From Bisporella sp. PMI_857 (lineage: Eukaryota; Ascomycota; Leotiomycetes; Helotiales; Helotiaceae): a DNA stretch of 64,000 nt. A model generated the notes under the pieces. That model had not been told where the DNA came from. It searched no databases and worked only from the letters and a program-made list of their open reading frames with translations. Every line of letters starts with the position of its first letter. The first letter of the stretch is position 1. Below are positions 8,056-17,278 of this stretch, piece by piece. The stretch spans positions 44,160-108,159 of the forward strand of contig JAJSPD010000109.1 of the NCBI GenBank assembly GCA_021307315.1, given 5' to 3'. The position numbers and the translations under genes are program-made.

Positions 8056-10314
8056 TTAGCCGTATATTGGCGATAGACCATACCAAGGCTTACTATTAGC
8101 TGGTACTCTGTATCGAAGATTCGAGGCAGAAGGAGTCTCGCTTTGCCTGGATTCCTTGCCCTTAGGTGCTTTCGATAGGTCGCTTACTTCTTCATCCGCC
8201 GGCAGATCCGAGCTATTTTTCCGGTCATCTATCGCCTTTGCCTTGTTTTTTGTTCGTTGCAGCATTGACTGAAGTATCGGATCGTTCTCAAGACTCTCTG
8301 TCGATTTCCGGGACGCGAGCTTATCAAAATTCCAGCTAGCCATCCAGGCATCCTTGTGACTTAAATCTAACTCAAGGTGAGCATTTCCTAGAAAATTTGT
8401 GGAATTGGTTTCAGTCAGCTGAGGTTTCCAATGGTCCCAGAAGTGTTCTGTTCCAAGTGCAACCATGTCCTCGTCATCCTCCAGATTCTTAACCGTACTC
8501 CTGCTCTGCGGCCGTGAAGCGTCAACACTATCCTTTCCACTTTCAGCGTTGTCTGGTATCTCGTCTTGGTGGCTTGGAAGGGACTTGAGGGCGAGGGATC
8601 TCAAATGTCCGGTGATGTGATCCTCCAGACGACCATCGACCTCGGTCTCATCTTTGCCACACAAGGGGCATGATAGAAACAGCTTCACCATCTTGCGAGT
8701 GTTCCTGTTTGCCAAGGTGCGAAGTTGGGTGTCGCTGAGTTTGGTATTATGGACTTCCCGCATGTGTTGGATGTACTCTTCACGGGTCGAAAATGGACCT
8801 AGCTCGCGGTGAGAGGAGCAGCGCCATCGCTGACTGTGCTGATGTAAATGGCTGAGCCATCCATCGCTGTGACTATAGAGCTCGTCCGCTTGGTCGCAGT
8901 CCTCACAGAGGCACACATAGGGGTCTAGGTCATTCTTGACGTGATTTCTTGAAGTCTAATCAGTAGTGTGCTACGACGGCAAGAACTTTGCAGGTATGGT
9001 AATTTTTCGTTGCGAGCTAGATAATTACTCACTGCCACTTTCGCTCGTCGAACACCTCTTCAGCTGGTAGAGCGTAAAGGCAATAAGGACAGGTGATCTC
9101 TCCTATTGCCTGGAGGTCTGACTTCAGAGTGTCTTTGAGCTTTGCCTCTATGGAGGCTATGTCTTACGTTACCTTGTCAGCAACACTCAGCCTGGGTGGT
9201 GGGTGCTTACAGGAGTCCTTCGTGGCACATAATTCCAGTTCATCAAGCACAGTCTGGTGAACAGCTAACCGCTGTGACTTAAGTTGTTCGTACTTTCGTT
9301 TGGCAGCGAGCCCAGGGGCGGGTGGGAAATTGAGAGCTTCATGGTTGCCCAAGGCGACTGTCTTGCTTGCTGAAATAACGGATGGACTTGATGCGGCCGT
9401 TTTGAACTTTTCGGGGAGTAAAGTTGTTGCGCTTTTGATCTGGGAGGGTACAACTGTGGTCGCTGCCACGGCAACAACCTGACCATCATCCTGTTGTGGA
9501 TTGCCTTGCGCTAAGGGAACCGTTGGTCGAGCAGCTGGCAATATAATAGACGCCTTGAGCACTTCTTTTTGTGGCCGGGGAGCCATCTTCCCTTGACGAT
9601 GTCTTCTGTATAGAATTCGTTTCCGTCGAAGGAGCATTGCGCAGGCGAGTCTCTCTTGGATAGTGTTGCTGATGTTGGGAAACCGATCACGGATGTAACG
9701 TTCAAAATGACCGAGCAAGAGTGGCTCTACGTCATAGCCGTCGTCGTCTTTAATCCGGAAATCGCTTGCTTTAAGAATTTGAGCTTCTTTGCTGGCTCTT
9801 TGAATTGTGTTCGACATCTTGTTTAAACGACTGATCTCAGTCGCAATATCTCCAAAACACCGTTCCAACGCTTCTCTTGGAATACCCAGAGTATTCGTTG
9901 CTGGGGACTCGACAATGATATCAAGGACGTCCGAGTCTGTGTGGACGTTAAATTGACTTGTCCAATTTTGGAGGCGAGAGGCCGGCACAAACTGAGGCCA
10001 TGAACTGCAACGAAGGGGCGAGACCTACAAGTTCGAATGCGGTAGTTCAGTGACTCCAGCAGACCAGTGACAACACTATGCACCTCCGGGGCATATCGGA
10101 GCCGATGATCCATCGATGCTCGCCCAAGAGCAAAAACTCCGATGCCCGTAGTCCAGGTGGAGAACCTCGCGACTTGGTCCTCTACCATTGAGAGCTCCCG
10201 GGGATGGACGGACGAGGCACGGAGGAGGCATTGTTGAAACGATTCCAGGCACTGGTTAGCGGAGGCAGCAACGGTTGATCGCTTTGGCTCTGAGGCCGTG
10301 TCAGCGTCAGTCAT
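8056..10314 (-). CDS. C2H2-type zinc-finger-domain protein (fungal family), about 689 aa
   Basis: Model: 10314-10055, 10004-9211, 9156-9033, 8947-8056 on the minus strand. The 54-nt intron 9157-9210 (GTAAGC, branch CTGAC) and the 85-nt intron 8948-9032 (GTGAGT) are firm. The first junction (intron 10005-10054) fits phase and length but has a weak GTCACT donor, so it could instead be a small frameshift. The N-terminal half has the helical core typical of this fungal family (GIGVFALGRASMDHRLR; LRRKRILYRR near residue 200). The C-terminal part has CPYCLYALPAEEV, HVKNDLDPYVCLCEDC, the HLHQHSQRWRC cysteine/histidine motif, and SCPLCGKDE...HITGHL, that is three degenerate C2H2-like fingers. The last 120 residues are Ser-rich. 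Such proteins are common near fungal NLR and HET genes; DNA or RNA binding is possible but unproven. It is transcribed away from the subtilase gene, with 504 bp between start codons. Confidence 0.8.
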
Positions 10315-10818: not shown

Positions 10819-13800
10819 ATGGTCACATCCTTGACCCCCGATGACAGGGGCGAAAATGACTTGCTCCTGAAAACGTCCGAAACAGTAATGCAGATGGCAG
10901 AAATTGCTCGAATCAACGAGGTCAACGAGGAAGCAAGAGTCTTCTACTGCCACTTGGGGTTCCATTGCGTCAGATTCCGAGACCATGTAAGGCGCACATG
11001 CCAGACTTCGTCTCTACTCAATAGGGAACTGGTCAGCCAGGCTCTGCGCCAACTCGGCTCTCTGGTTCCTGAAACTGGCCTCCAGAAACTGCAATCATAC
11101 CCTGTCACGTTGGAATTTCGTCTCGGCGCTCTTAACCTTCACTGGAGCGAGATACGAAAGCAACACGAGGACGCGAAACTCGAATTCATTAGAAGATGGT
11201 TGAAGCTTGGAGCGTCCGACGAGCATCGCAGCGAAGTGGACAAAGCACTGGAAAGTTGTGCGGACGACCTCGACAAGCAACAGCCCAAGCACTCTTTCAA
11301 GAAACCCGCGGAGATAATCGCATCCCCGGACATCAGCGAACCATCATACACCGTCGGGAAGGTGGCTCAATCGATATTCGACGCGCTGTTGGATTGCAAG
11401 GGATGCTCCTGCTCGAGCCAACACAAGTTTGGAGCCAAGCTCGAATTGGGCACTTACCGGAAATCCGAGAAGAAAATCGATAAGAAACCAGTCGCCAAAT
11501 ATATTCGAAACCGTAATCGAAAGCTCTGCGGCTATGACGATGCAGCCGGAGAGGAGATCAATTTCGACATGTTTCTTTCTATGGAACAGGATTGGCACGA
11601 AGTTCGCGTTCAAACCGTCAAAGAGAGAGTCGTTAGGTTTGCTATTTCTAGTGAAGTGGTGCTGCCCAGTGGAGGCAACGCTGCTGGTGCATCTACGAAG
11701 GTGGAGAAACTCTGCAGACCAATTGCCAAGATGAAAACGAAGGCTTTGCAGCGCCTCGTGTTGAAGCTCACCAGCGGCCAACTCTTTGAGATAGGATTTG
11801 AGAAAAGCAATTTCCGGATCGACAAGATTGCTGAGCCTATTTCTCTATCTCGGTGTTTTGAAGAGCGGCACGAATTCTTCACAGAGAAGACGAAACGCAT
11901 CCTTTCGCTCATCATTGGCTACACAGTTCTCCACCTGAACGACACTTCCTGGCTTCAGCCAGGGTGGGGTTCTACAAACATCAAATTTTTTCAGACAATT
12001 TCTTGCAAGACTCCTTTGCGACCATTCATCCAAACCCAGCTGCCCAAGGCCAGTCCCGCCGGCGCGATTCCCGATTTCCAACTCGTCGTGAACGGTGGTG
12101 ACGGCGCTGACGATAGCTCGGACGTGCTAGATTCAGGACATCGCTGTCCGGCATTGGTTGCCTTAGCAGTGGTGCTGATGGAGGTTTACTTTGTCAAGCC
12201 ATTCAAAAAGCTAGCTGAGATGCATAACGTCCCGCTAATTGAGGAGTCCAGTGGCCGTATCACACTCATTGACGTCGATCAGGTGTTCAATGGCGTTGAG
12301 GAAATTGAGCAGGAAGGATGGCGGGCCCATATCCCCGAGGACTCTCCTCTACTTACCGCTATAGACAACTGCCTGGATGGCGAGCTCTGGGAAGACGACG
12401 AAGGCGAGGCCCTCGACAGTGGAACGCTCATGTCGCGGATTTATCAACAAGTTGTTCGGCTCCTGGAGCTCCACCTGACTTGCGGCTTCAGCCAGATACC
12501 TCTGGACGGCATCGACAAGTATGCAAGGGATTTGGATGTTGGGAAGTGGGGTCAGGTCATAACCAGCCATGAATCAGATGGCCACGCGGCTACTCTGCCT
12601 CCGGGGGTGCTCACACCTACACACACCCCGCCATCCGCGCCTTTGCTGCTTGTTCCAAGCCAAGCCGGCGTCCAATATTCGCAGTCCAATTCTCTGGTCT
12701 CATATCCGGCACAGTATCCGGACTCCATGCGGAATCCTGAGGTCGATTACAAAGCATCTCAGTTCTTTGATGATGAGATGGGTGACGGGGAGTATTCTGT
12801 CGCTAAGTAAGTATCTCAATCGCAACTCTGTGAGCTCCCTGTAATGGCCTACATTTGTTTATGAATGAGATATGCCTGCTGACTTCCCATTCAGTAGAAT
12901 CGAGAGATACCTGACATGGAGATCAGAATACGAAAAAGTCTATGAGAGGTTCATTAAGGCACACCTCCCAGGCTCTCCATCACAACCTGTTAAAATTGCG
13001 ATTCTGGACACGGGTATCGATCGAGATCACTACGCCTTCGAAGCTCGCGAGGTGAACCTCAAGGAAATGCGCAACTGCTACAACGAGTCCCAGAAGAAAG
13101 TTCCAGATCGAAATGGACATGGCACTTTCGTTACGAGCCTGATACTCGACTATGCCCCAGACGCAGAACTCTACGTCGTCAAAGTTGCGGACAAGGAGAA
13201 CTTGAGACCCGACGCCAAGATTGTTGTGAATGTAAGCGGCTGGATTGGTATTGCTTCCCTACACAACATTCAGAAACTGACATACACAGGCGATCAACCA
13301 CGCAGTTGACAAATGGGATGTGGACATCATTTCGATGTCGTTTGGGTGGCCCTCCTCTAATTTTGAAGGTTACGACGCCCTCGAAGCTGCTATCGGCAAA
13401 GCATACAGCAAGAAAGTCCTCATGTTCGCTGCTGCTGCTAATAGTGGTGGCCGACTTGGTCGAGCGTATCCTGCCAGCAGCTCGGAGGTCATCTGCGTCC
13501 ATTCGACCGACACGTATGGGGGCGCATCGAACTTCAGCCCGACCGCCGAGCCTAACTCCATTAACATTGCGACGGTCGGCGAGTGGGTCCAGTCGGCATG
13601 GCCGATGCTGCTTTGTGGCGACAAGTCGAACCCAAAGTGCGTCGAGTCCCGGTCAGGGACGTCGTATGCGACGCCTATTATTGCGGGGATTGCGGCGTTC
13701 CTGCTGCAGTATGCGCGACTGCATTTACCGGGGAGTGCGGCACTGGCGTTGAAGCGGAAGGAGAGGATGGAGGCTCTGCTAAGGAGATGTGCCGAGCGGG

Positions 13801-13922
13801 GCCCCAATTACAATCCGAGGGATGGATATTTCTACGTTGAACTGAGTTTGAATCACCATAATCTTTTTGGAGGGAAGTTGGAGTGGGTCAATTATGAAAT
13901 TTCGAAGACATTGAGGACATAG
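10819..13922 (+). CDS. DUF7580-like plus S8 subtilisin-like serine protease, 985 aa
   Basis: Exons 10819-12806, 12895-13231 and 13290-13922; introns of 88 nt (GTAAGT, branch GCTGAC) and 58 nt (GTAAGC, branch ACTGAC) keep phase. Residues 1-660 form a large N-terminal region starting with LLLKTSETVMQMAEIARINE and FYCHLGFHCVRFRDHVRRTC, followed by a DUF7580-like module (FDALLDCKGCSCSS, IIGYTVLHLNDTSWLQPGW, CPALVALAVVLMEVYF) with a helical C-terminal end. The S8 domain fills the last 310 residues with all catalytic motifs: Asp in ILDTGID, His in NGHGTF, the SMSFGW segment, and Ser in SGTSYATP. There is no signal peptide, so it acts inside the cell. In fungi this architecture is linked to cell-death and allorecognition circuits. 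Its stop lies 114 bp from the stop of the convergent gasdermin-like gene, a candidate substrate. An in-frame-unrelated ATG at 10699 (MSHFVSAASAED) could mark an upstream exon; I kept 10819. Confidence 0.85.
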
Positions 13923-14036
13923 CAAGCATGTTTCGGATACATGTATTTCAGCGTAGTGACACAAGACCAGTACTGAAACCTTTTCGTCCTAGTCACAATT
14001 TACGAAGCAAACGGACTTCCTTCTTCTGCCTGTGTG

Positions 14037-15038
14037 TCAATCATCAGAGTCTTCCTCCTTTGGAATCGCGCAGACCACCACATCGCCATCATCCACCAGC
14101 TCCACTGTGTCAAACCCTTCACTCTCCGCATCTGGATCTTCGACCTTCAGGACAGACAGTTCCGGGCCTTTGACCTGCTCCTCCTCGTTGCCCAACATAG
14201 CTCCCTTGCGGTACTCCTCCTCGCTCACCACCTGCCCCGTCGCCTTACCCACAAAGATCTTGCTCACGCGAAACGCAAACACAAAGTCGTCGCTGCCCTC
14301 CCATTTTGTGATGGCTTTTTTGCCTGCTTTGCCCTCTATACCCGGACCGCCACCAATAGGTAAGATGCCGCCGCTCCATAATGTGCCATCGACTTCAAAG
14401 GCAAGAGCGCCCCCAACGGTGCGGGACTTGAGCGATTTGGCTTCGACGCCAGTGACGACTTTGAGGCCGGTAATGATATAGACTGGCTTGCGGTAGCCAG
14501 AGATTTGGAGGAAGCGGCGGACGTCGTCGGCTTCGATGCACCTCTGGAAGTAGGACGGTGTTGGAAAGAATTGTGTGGTCTGAATGGTTTCGAAAGAGAA
14601 TGTGTCCTCATCACTGGTATTATCAACGAGATATAGTTAATTTCCACTTAAATAGCACTAAGAGATACTTAGAGAGGAGCAACTCGGGCTTAAAGAGAGC
14701 GCATTAAATCATAAGTTACGTTCTTGATGGTGTTGGGTGCTCGTAGAGGCAAGGCTCGCCTACCTATTGTCCATTTCGGCGTCGACATCGACACCAAACC
14801 CAAGAACGCTGAGGAACTTGGTCAGGATGGAGAACTTTCCGCTCCGCCACTTCTCTTTGGTGTATTGGACAGTCATTTTTTTCGTCGAGAAGACATCAGA
14901 GCCCTCTGGCGGCGGAGCGCAGTGGAGGGGTCGTTCAGGCCTTTTGACCGAGGTGATGACGTTGCCTAGCTTGATTGGACCACCCGGGGGATAATCCCAC
15001 GTCGGAGCGTAGAAGAAGAAGCATTGGCAATTGGCCAT
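14037..15038 (-). CDS. Putative fungal gasdermin-like pore-forming protein, 283 aa
   Basis: Exons 15038-14764 and 14613-14037; a 150-nt intron (donor GTAGGC, acceptor ATACCAG) joins ...DAEMDN to SDEDTFSFET in phase. I recognise the family as a conserved fungal protein beginning with an aromatic/Pro motif (FFFYAPTWDYPPGGPIKLGN, residues 7-26) and ending in an acidic tail. Length, motif, beta-strand pattern (YRKPVYIITGLKVV, DDFVFAFRVSKIFV), Gly-rich centre (ILPIGGGPGIEGKAGKK) and charged C-terminus agree with fungal gasdermin-like proteins such as HET-Q1 as I remember them. In that system a partner subtilase removes a short C-terminal piece and the N-terminal part then permeabilises membranes. 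Here the neighbour is an S8 protease. There is no signal peptide or stable transmembrane helix. The assignment rests on memory of the family plus context. An alternative is an unrelated beta-rich fungal protein of unknown function. ATG 15038 is preferred over an in-frame ATG at 15146 because homologue-like sequence begins at the former. Confidence 0.6.
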
Positions 15039-15186
15039 GACTATTGTCGTGTCTCTACCTTGGGCGATTCGGAGAGGTAAGACTCTTTGCTCTAATAGAA
15101 CTCGGAGCGTTAGGCAATCACTTCTGGTAGAATGGTATTTAGGCATCCATCAAATGCAGTGGTTCGCAACCAGGCAACATAACTTT

Positions 15187-15345
15187 GTTACGACACACGT
15201 TGTGGATCTACAGACACAGAGGGCAACAGTGGTATCATACAGAGAATCTAAAGCTAAGCAAGGAAAAGGAGCTCGAGGAGAGCAGGCTATATACACGAGT
15301 GGCTCTGAGAGCCCGGCTAATATAGGTCACGTGTGCTCCAGAGCA
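15187..15345. repeat. Dispersed repeat fragment (copy A)
   Basis: From GTTACGACACACGTTGTGGA through a GTGGTATCATACAGAG stretch, GAGCTCGAGGAGAGCAGGCT and GCTAATATAGGTCACGTG, this matches 23730-23860 and 23996-24020 inside the TIR element at 23696-24194. It lacks about 130 bp of that element's middle and both ends. The GTGGTATCAT string resembles a Copia primer-binding site, so an LTR origin is also possible. Confidence 0.6.
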
Positions 15346-15440
15346 CGGGACGTGACAATTGTTTTTGAATTTTAATTTATTCTTTTTTAATACTTTCTCT
15401 ACGTTATTTAATAAGTTAACAAAATACAAAAAGCGCGTGA

Positions 15441-15514
15441 TGAATCCGATTTAATCTGATTTAATCTGATTTAATCTGATTTAAAATCAAAAAAATCAAA
15501 TCTGATTAAATCAA
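15441..15514. repeat. TTAATCTGAT tandem repeat with inverted partner
   Basis: Three perfect copies of TTAATCTGAT (15451-15480) follow a diverged one, and the string TCTGATTAAATC at 15499-15510 is the inverted counterpart. Together they can form an AT-rich stem-loop. No gene depends on it visibly. Confidence 0.75.
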
Positions 15515-15554
15515 ATTGTAATCAATCCTAGGCGTCGGAATACCTACCACGTAG

Positions 15555-15586
15555 CAAAAGGCGTAGTAGCTGTGACTACGCTTTTG
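15555..15586. other. Perfect-arm hairpin
   Basis: CAAAAGGCGTAGT and ACTACGCTTTTG pair over twelve bases with one bulged G around a 7-base loop (AGCTGTG). It sits in AT-rich intergenic DNA between the gasdermin-like gene and the kinase pseudogene. It could be the tip of a small palindromic element; no open reading frame surrounds it. Confidence 0.6.
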
Positions 15587-16591
15587 TTTGTGTGGTTCTG
15601 GTATTGATTGATTCTTTTAAGCTACCGCTTATGGCCAGGTAGATATATGTGATAGAAGGCCCACAATTCCCGCGATCCGATGGATCGCGTGAGCTATATA
15701 TATGCACCCCAACACTAGGATTATATTTTGGTCACACTGCGCATTTCTTAAATTCAGAGTTTTTTTCGCAGCCGCAAATGTGCTTAATATACACCTGTAC
15801 ACACATGGTCGAACTAAGGTTTGCTAGGCAGAGTACTATACAAGTTGGCTTGAAAAAATTTACCTATTTTTAGTGGTAAAGATGTATAATTTAATTCAAG
15901 TGAAGAACGAGATGCGAATCTGCCTGTGAAATTCTAGATAATCAGACTTCTTCAGGATACTCGTGACTCGATTCTAAGCACGCACCACTTGCAAAATCTG
16001 GTTCGCGGTAAAAAAAGTTCTTGACGCGTCTAGGTAGTTTTGGTAACCGATAATGATCGGACTTCATGGTGCACAAGAGATATTATACTTGGAATGCTCT
16101 ACGTCTGGCCTCGGGAAAAGTCACGAGTAGCGCGTAATTGAGGTCTCGATTGGAATTCCAGGTGGCGCTTACGGGCGAAGAACAAAACCGCATATAGATT
16201 CCGACATAGGTTAGTTGAACTTAAGATGGATCAACTGGATAACTGTCGAACAAAACCAACAGTCGAGGGAAAGGATGTGTCAATTGGCGCCGTGGGTAAT
16301 TTCTATAAATGCATAGTAAGCGCGTTAACTAAAGACCGTTGCCCGAACTTTCGGTTATTTTTTTATACAACGCTCGCTTTCTGCTACAAACATCCCCAAA
16401 CAAAAGTCTGCCCCAATCTACCACAGACCTCAATATCAACTTCTAATCGAGTAAGCCAGGTCTTATTATCAAGAAAACCCTTCTTCGGTGTGTATCAGAC
16501 GCATCACCCCAACCAAAGCTATGCATTCTACCATGATCGAGATCTTGTATCAAGATATAGATACTCAAAGTAACACGTCTAGCTATTACAG

Positions 16592-17278
16592 AATGCTGGT
16601 GAACAAAAGTACTTCACATACATTACTATCGACCCAGGAGTCTATGAAATTGATGACCTGTGCTTCCCGCAAGGGACTGGAACTATGGCTGCATCTCGCA
16701 AACCGTGGGAGGTCTGACATCGTTCTTCGCGAAAACCGCTAAGAAAAATTTTCCTTCAATCAATACTCTGGCATAAAAAGTCCTACGAATGCCTTTCTTT
16801 GAAAATTGGAGAGAGACTCAGGTCAAACGTCTACATAGCATCTTCTCCGCAATCCGAGAAACCAATAGTTGCTAAATTTGCAAGATTCTACTGGGAGATT
16901 GGATACTATATCGCCGAGACCGAAGCGTATTCATGGATAGACGGCCACAATGTCAGCCCAGAGTTCCTAGGGCCCTTAACTGAAGATGGCTGGGTTGTCG
17001 GGTTTCTTATCGAACACGTTGATGGTCGCCATGCTACCATTTCAGGCCTTCCTGCCTGCGAGGTCATTTTTAAACGATTGCATGGTTTAGGCATTCTTCA
17101 CAGCGATCTGAACAAGCACAATTTTTTGGTTTCGGAAATGGGCGCTATTCTCATTGATTTTGAGACGGCAAAGCGGTTGGATAATAGCGAGGCTATGAAA
17201 ATGGAAATGGAGGGATTAGAGGCGCAGCTGTTGGACGAGTCTGGAAGTGGTGGAGTGGTTTTGGAGGACGACACTTGA
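16592..17278 (+). pseudogene. Kinase-fold protein (often annotated alpha-galactosidase A in fungi), disrupted
   Basis: One frame is open from an acceptor-like TTACAG at 16591 to 17278 except for a TGA at 16715. Before the stop it reads YFTYITIDPGVYEIDDLCFP; after it, SLKIGERLRSNVYIASSP, VAKFARFYWEIGY, WIDGH..SPEFLGPLTEDG and the catalytic loop LHGLGILHSDLNKHNFLV with metal-binding ILIDFETAKR. These are the nucleotide-binding Lys, HxDxxxxN loop and DFE motif of the protein/aminoglycoside-kinase-like fold. Despite the common label, glycosidase activity is not expected. The premature TGA and lack of a good first exon argue for a pseudogene; a shorter protein from 16799 would lack an ATG. Fungal genomes usually carry many copies of this family. 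Confidence 0.65.

Follow-up and report, generated by a model that had tools for sequence, protein, structure and literature searches.

A Fungal Gasdermin Gene and a Convergent DUF7580-S8 Protease Gene in Bisporella sp. PMI_857 as a Likely Two-Gene Cell-Death Cluster

The DNA described here, a 64,000-nucleotide stretch referred to below as the window, is part of the 55.6-Mb genome of Bisporella sp. PMI_857 (Helotiales, Leotiomycetes; C12:44160-108159). Our subject is a pair of convergent genes within it, which encode a large S8 (subtilase) protease with a DUF7580 domain and a 283-amino acid (aa) protein that sequence profile and predicted fold identify as a fungal gasdermin (fGSDM). An earlier note on the window had proposed that the pair is a cell-death module of the HET-Q type. 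We consider it very likely that the pair is a two-gene cluster of an fGSDM and a HET-Q2-like (Q2L) protease that forms a self-contained switch for regulated cell death, of which the cleavage, its site, the pore, and the trigger are predicted elements.

Gene Models and Protein Families

The features of the locus are as follows.

10819 to 12806, + strand: protease gene exon 1, an open frame that encodes the N-terminal helical region (aa ~10-153), DUF7580 and the predicted pseudokinase (aa ~181-560), and the start of the linker; Pfam DUF7580 E 4.5e-25, AlphaFold2 model, and kinase-fold matches
12895 to 13231, + strand: protease gene exon 2, the end of the linker and S8 Asp701 and His738; splice model and Pfam S8
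13290 to 13922, + strand: protease gene exon 3, S8 Asn826 and Ser900 and the stop codon; splice model and Pfam S8 E 3.2e-30
13923 to 14036, no strand: gap of 114 bp between the convergent stop codons, from coordinates
14037 to 14613, - strand: gasdermin gene exon 2, the remainder of the pore-forming body, the linker (aa ~229-243), and the acidic C-terminal tail; stop codon included
14614 to 14763, - strand: gasdermin intron, 150 bp, GTAGGC...ACCAG; resulting protein identical to the deposited model
14764 to 15038, - strand: gasdermin gene exon 1, with the start codon and the N-terminal portion of the pore-forming body

The protease gene (10819-13922, + strand) consists of three exons and encodes 985 aa in the order helical region, DUF7580, and S8 protease. 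Its introns (GTAAGT..CAG and GTAAGC..CAG) are our choice among several open splice combinations. In the deposited 940-aa model (P0121), the first intron within the linker is wider, which is the sole difference, and both Pfam domains are retained. The gasdermin gene (15038-14037, - strand) consists of two exons, and its 283-aa product matches a deposited hypothetical protein (P0001) letter for letter.

Pfam places Peptidase_S8 at residues 695-920 (E 3.2e-30) and DUF7580 at residues 242-553 (E 4.5e-25). The catalytic residues Asp701, His738, Asn826, and Ser900 (985-aa numbering) are all present and are kept in 38, 37, 38, and 35 rows, respectively, of an alignment of 38 relatives, where the misses are three gaps and one Lys. 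The nearest solved relative of the S8 domain is an intracellular serine protease, which is in keeping with an N-terminus in which no signal peptide was seen by eye. Q2L proteases are recognized by the catalytic Asp, His, Asn, and Ser of their S8 domain, by a gasdermin gene within 10 kb, and by an additional sensor or receptor region; the Bisporella protein has the four residues, a gasdermin gene at 114 bp, and an N-terminal region with DUF7580 that spans ~690 residues.

The 283-aa protein was matched to RCD-1-1 (E 3.7e-15) and HET-Q1 (E 6.8e-7) by a sequence profile (A1) and to the same two proteins by a single-sequence search (E 9.8e-8 and 2.6e-6, respectively), while bacterial gasdermins gave a weak profile match of ~1e-3. 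Its predicted fold matches RCD-1 in Foldseek and is the pore-forming fold of gasdermins, and RCD-1 is its closest solved relative by both sequence and fold. No Pfam family was assigned to it at E ≤ 1, and PF26164 is precomputed for 2 of the 120 listed gasdermin relatives. The protein begins with an aromatic/Pro start (FFFYAPTWDYPP), and the model is rich in strands. The body (residues 1-235) carries a net charge of +2 and the tail (residues 238-283, 4.9 kDa) a net charge of -13; the tail is negative in 41/41 aligned relatives. Thus, the main structural claims of the earlier note, namely an intact S8 protease on a large DUF7580-like region, a gasdermin-like protein with aromatic-Pro start, beta-rich body, and acidic tail, and 114 bp between the stop codons, were all confirmed.

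The tail also points to where the protein might be cut. In the model, a low-confidence linker (residues 229-239) is followed by three strands, and in the alignment of 41 gasdermins position 232 is Leu in 37 members and Phe, Ile, or Met in the others, with position 231 mostly Met or Leu. HET-Q1 (278 aa) is cut by HET-Q2 at Phe238, with the loss of 40 residues (PMC10989679). A hypothetical cut after Leu232 would take off 51 residues, and the acidic tail of ~46-51 residues, as delimited from sequence, resembles in length the segment removed from HET-Q1. We predict a cleavage site at or near Met231-Leu232, within residues 229-243.

The closeness to RCD-1 raises a different reading, in which the gasdermin is triggered by a divergent allelic variant and the neighboring protease acts on a different substrate or is there incidentally. 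Activation of RCD-1 takes two allelic variants and no cleavage (PMC12881547). However, the RCD-1 variants are 257 and 244 aa long (same source), whereas the Bisporella protein has 283 aa and a long tail that is acidic throughout its relatives, and a protease partner is found at five of six loci in the genome and in at least 11 pairs with consecutive tags elsewhere, as described below. We regard RCD-1-like action as quite unlikely.

Linkage, Possible Transfer, and Surrounding Sequence

A search of the genome with the window gasdermin, which very divergent copies could escape, revealed six fGSDM loci. At five of these, an S8 match is found 0.3-2.6 kb away and a DUF7580 match 0.9-2.3 kb away, with the two matches 512-667 bp from each other on a common strand. 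The four pairs outside the window are defined by domain matches, and the motifs of Asp, His, Asn, and Ser are likewise present in their S8 stretches. Although fungal S8 genes are common, with 29 S8 and 18 DUF7580 loci in this genome, no further S8-DUF7580 pair within 3 kb was found among these loci apart from the fGSDM-linked five. Because there are 29 S8 loci in 55.6 Mb, the probability that a random point has an S8 locus no more than 5 kb away is ~0.0056, and the binomial probability of five in six is ~3e-11. Since five of the six fGSDM loci adjoin DUF7580 and S8 matches, and since linkage extends across genera, chance adjacency of unrelated genes is refuted as regards linkage and we give it almost no credence. 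The convergent layout described in the earlier note holds for the window pair and fails as a rule, as two of the five pairs are convergent, two tandem, and one divergent.

The sixth, gasdermin-like locus (L020 5119-5749, G000:C189) is broken over several frames and is possibly a decayed copy, with introns as an alternative cause of the pieces. A CHAT protease was considered as its partner and rejected, as none of the five CHAT matches in the genome is on this contig. Separately, a 123,992-bp contig (G000:C7) carries two gasdermin/DUF7580/S8 clusters, at ~5 kb and 111 kb, and an extra DUF7580 match at 76 kb.

The earlier note had staked its proposal on a similarity of the 283-aa protein to gasdermins in fold and on linkage with S8 genes in related fungi, and both were found, the former by the predicted fold. 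Among the relatives examined (the best 120 of 182 gasdermin relatives and 118 listed protease relatives), at least 11 gasdermin-protease pairs have consecutive locus tags. Thirty pairs were matched by eye, 29 through equal-sized contigs and one through tags, with three metagenome pairs excluded; gasdermin and protease distances correlate over these 30 pairs with r 0.81, as compared to 0.41 for the best of 5000 permutations (Mantel). A counter-case is T. virens FT-333, in which the relatives share a contig ~290 tags apart and no S8 domain is precomputed for the DUF7580 protein. Metagenome proteins with DUF7580 only (~650-700 aa) were not counted as protease losses because their ends fall near the first intron, and they look like unspliced calls of exon 1.

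Among the relatives listed, both genes have their closest named counterparts in Diaporthe sp. PMI_573 (Sordariomycetes; 87% and 82%), where the proteins are full length. In a joint tree, the Bisporella pair is nested among 23 pairs that we take to be from Sordariomycetes. A constraint that keeps 22 of those pairs together without Bisporella, the deep Dactylonectria_b row being excluded, was rejected by the approximately unbiased (AU) test with p 0.003, which is optimistic because the group was named after the trees were viewed; the AU p of 1e-40 obtained with that row included is uninformative. The grouping of Bisporella with Diaporthe has a support of only 81-88, and the 36-row gasdermin clade also includes one Aspergillus and one Golovinomyces row. 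The species-history baseline is a single flanking gene, amine-oxidase-like, whose best named relative is from Cadophora (Helotiales, 87%), while the listed Cadophora gasdermins are 50-51% identical. Owing to the nesting among Sordariomycete pairs, the pair may have been acquired horizontally, which these sequence comparisons place at about even odds; old paralogy with losses may account for the pattern instead. The Golovinomyces row (P0023, the powdery mildew Golovinomyces magnicellulatus, on a 2,070-bp contig) lies inside a mostly Fusarium-type gasdermin clade and may be a contamination.

The surroundings of the pair contain other features. Upstream of the gasdermin gene, a dispersed repeat (15185-15717) begins ~150 bp from the start codon and consists of two stretches (15185-15360 and 15534-15717), which together have at least ~40 further copies at 80-94% identity, scored from 572 candidates; GATTTAATCT-type repeats lie between the stretches, and some copies keep both stretches close. 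A 159-aa frame ~1.8 kb upstream of the gasdermin (16799-17278, + strand) has kinase-like matches (Kdo/WaaP, APH). The divergent neighbor of the protease (8056-10314, - strand) consists of two overlapping open frames for which Pfam gave only a sub-threshold, chance-level match; by eye, we presume a resemblance to fungal C2H2-type proteins of STAND-rich regions.

The Sensor Region and Its Outputs

An AlphaFold2 model covering the sensor region has a predicted local distance difference test (pLDDT) score of 72.3 and a predicted template modeling score of 0.58, and suggests a kinase-like fold for DUF7580. Letters of the HRD, DxKxxN, or VAIK type were found in 0/48 aligned members within the mapped stretches; DFG-type letters occur in 6/48 members, at varying places after the catalytic loop, and not in the window protein. 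Because a kinase-like fold is predicted and the kinase catalytic motifs are missing, DUF7580 is probably a pseudokinase sensor. The third-ranked structure match to the model is MLKL (4btf), which spans residues 11-551. The arrangement of the domains does not superpose, as the root mean square deviation is 17.7 over 278 residues. The helical region (residues 10-153) was barely probed by the fold search, in which MLKL spans it once. No HeLo-type family is among the Pfam matches (E ≤ 1) of the N-terminal region of the window protein, and the HeLo/HELL check on the 48 aligned members covered 25 of 31 matched families. We found no mention of 'DUF7580' in literature that leaves out most subscription papers.

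The S8 domain is not the only output found behind this sensor. In 13 of the 118 listed protease relatives, a nucleoside phosphorylase domain (PNP_UDP_1) is present instead of S8, and in the relatives scanned it sits C-terminal of DUF7580, where S8 sits in others; one relative has a GTPase domain at this position. At the position of S8 in the window protein, the relatives P0167, P0170, P0230, P0235, and P0234 carry PNP_UDP_1, or in one case the GTPase domain. A tree of the N-terminal part (42 rows, root not inferred) has PNP rows in two places, as forced by its starred branches, and one PNP group nests among S8 proteins with >60% identity to the window protein. The occurrence of PNP rows in two separate lineages supports a portable sensor with an exchangeable output, and PNP_UDP is a known effector domain in fungal NLRs (PMC9815663). 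A bolder and still doubtful extension is that DUF7580 proteins serve fungal immunity as a modular chassis, laid out like MLKL with a helical region and a pseudokinase switch, whose C-terminal outputs are swapped over evolutionary time (S8 acting on gasdermin, nucleoside phosphorylase, GTPase). In the Bisporella pair, a pyroptosis-type pore would then be under the control of a necroptosis-type switch, and the cassette would move between fungal classes as a unit.

Proposed Mechanism and Comparison with Known Systems

Our proposal is built on what was observed of the gene structures, family identities, gasdermin fold, active site, linkage, and tail, and on a pseudokinase fold taken from models. 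In this proposal, the DUF7580-S8 protein would be a cytosolic sensor-protease, kept inactive by the helical region at its N-terminus together with the pseudokinase. An intracellular cue, such as a parasite or non-self encountered upon hyphal fusion, would alter the pseudokinase and release the S8 domain. The protease would then cut the gasdermin within the linker that joins the body to the acidic tail, presumably at Met231-Leu232, a hydrophobic pair that is conserved, or close to it. The freed gasdermin body would oligomerize in the plasma membrane and kill the cell.

Several observations weigh against this proposal. Convergent genes are not co-transcribed, and the C189 locus has no S8, DUF7580, or CHAT match nearby. 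Confidence in the gasdermin model is moderate (pLDDT 63.6, with residues 152-199 below 50), and the HET-Q1 pore is absent among its best 50 Foldseek rows. The kinase-fold match to the sensor model is weak in Foldseek (best E 5.4e-3, none <0.001) and modest by Z (9.1). In other fungi, shared species history explains part of the Mantel correlation, the nearest neighbors of gasdermin and protease agree in only 17/30 pairs, and the Cephalotrichum relatives DNG_04526 and DNG_02418 are on contigs of different length. Lone or unlinked genes of this kind, as at C189 and in Cephalotrichum, would also suit a reading in which the two genes are neighbors by descent and the pair is non-working or otherwise used, for example in regulated protein release, with the S8 protease perhaps cutting other substrates; secretion is named as a possible alternative role of fGSDM clusters in a review (PMC12881547). 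However, both Bisporella genes are intact with a conserved active site and tail, and their closest relatives are full length too, so that we consider this reading quite unlikely and retain the cell-death switch as the preferred one.

The reviews list as open questions what stimulates the proteases of fungal gasdermins and how these proteases are controlled, and this genome provides a clean case, in which five fGSDM loci adjoin DUF7580 and S8 matches and the sensor can be compared to relatives of other output. If DUF7580 is a pseudokinase switch, its ligand becomes testable and the control of fungal gasdermins would be tied to MLKL-like switching; if the pair did cross between classes, a death switch would be able to spread as a unit. 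The kind of cluster is already known, and the present analysis adds the probable pseudokinase sensor, the exchangeable output, and the possible transfer.

Two-gene clusters of fGSDM and Q2L are reportedly described by Clave et al. 2022. In a review, ~1900 fGSDMs were counted in 400 genomes, of which ~80% are clustered with protease genes (63% S8, 19% CHAT), and Q2L proteases have 18 architectures (PMC10197012). Since S8 proteases adjoin ~63% of fGSDM genes, the Bisporella pair is an ordinary member of this known kind, and like the clusters described in the reviews (PMC10197012, PMC12881547, PMC10989679) it combines a gasdermin with a short C-terminal tail and an adjoining multidomain S8 protease with an intact active site. 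Compared with the sensors that the reviews' descriptions stress (ANK, TPR, WD40, NLR), the Bisporella sensor is a helical region with DUF7580, although the same descriptions also mention proteases fused to 'other predicted kinase-like domains'.

The likeness to HET-Q1/HET-Q2 of Podospora anserina lies in gasdermin size (283 versus 278 aa), a cleavable-looking tail, and an S8 protease. The earlier note took het-Q1 and het-Q2 to be neighboring genes; they are in fact idiomorphs, alternative genes at a single locus in different strains (PMC12881547), whereas one genome carries both Bisporella genes next to each other, and the protease comprises 985 aa, including a 690-residue sensor part, as compared to 388 aa for HET-Q2 (PMC10989679). 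With both genes on one contig of one assembly, the proposed HET-Q-type module therefore stands as an fGSDM/Q2L two-gene cluster and not as a HET-Q incompatibility system. RCD-1-1/RCD-1-2 of Neurospora crassa belong to the same gasdermin family and give the best solved match, but the Bisporella gasdermin differs in its long acidic tail and protease partner. The parallel drawn to bacterial gasdermin defense operons applies to the adjacency of gasdermin and protease and to the weak profile match, and does not extend to an operon, as the Bisporella genes are eukaryotic, convergent, and intron-bearing. Finally, the order of a helical region followed by a predicted pseudokinase recalls MLKL, in which a four-helix bundle precedes a pseudokinase; in MLKL the output is the bundle itself, whereas in the Bisporella protein it is a protease.
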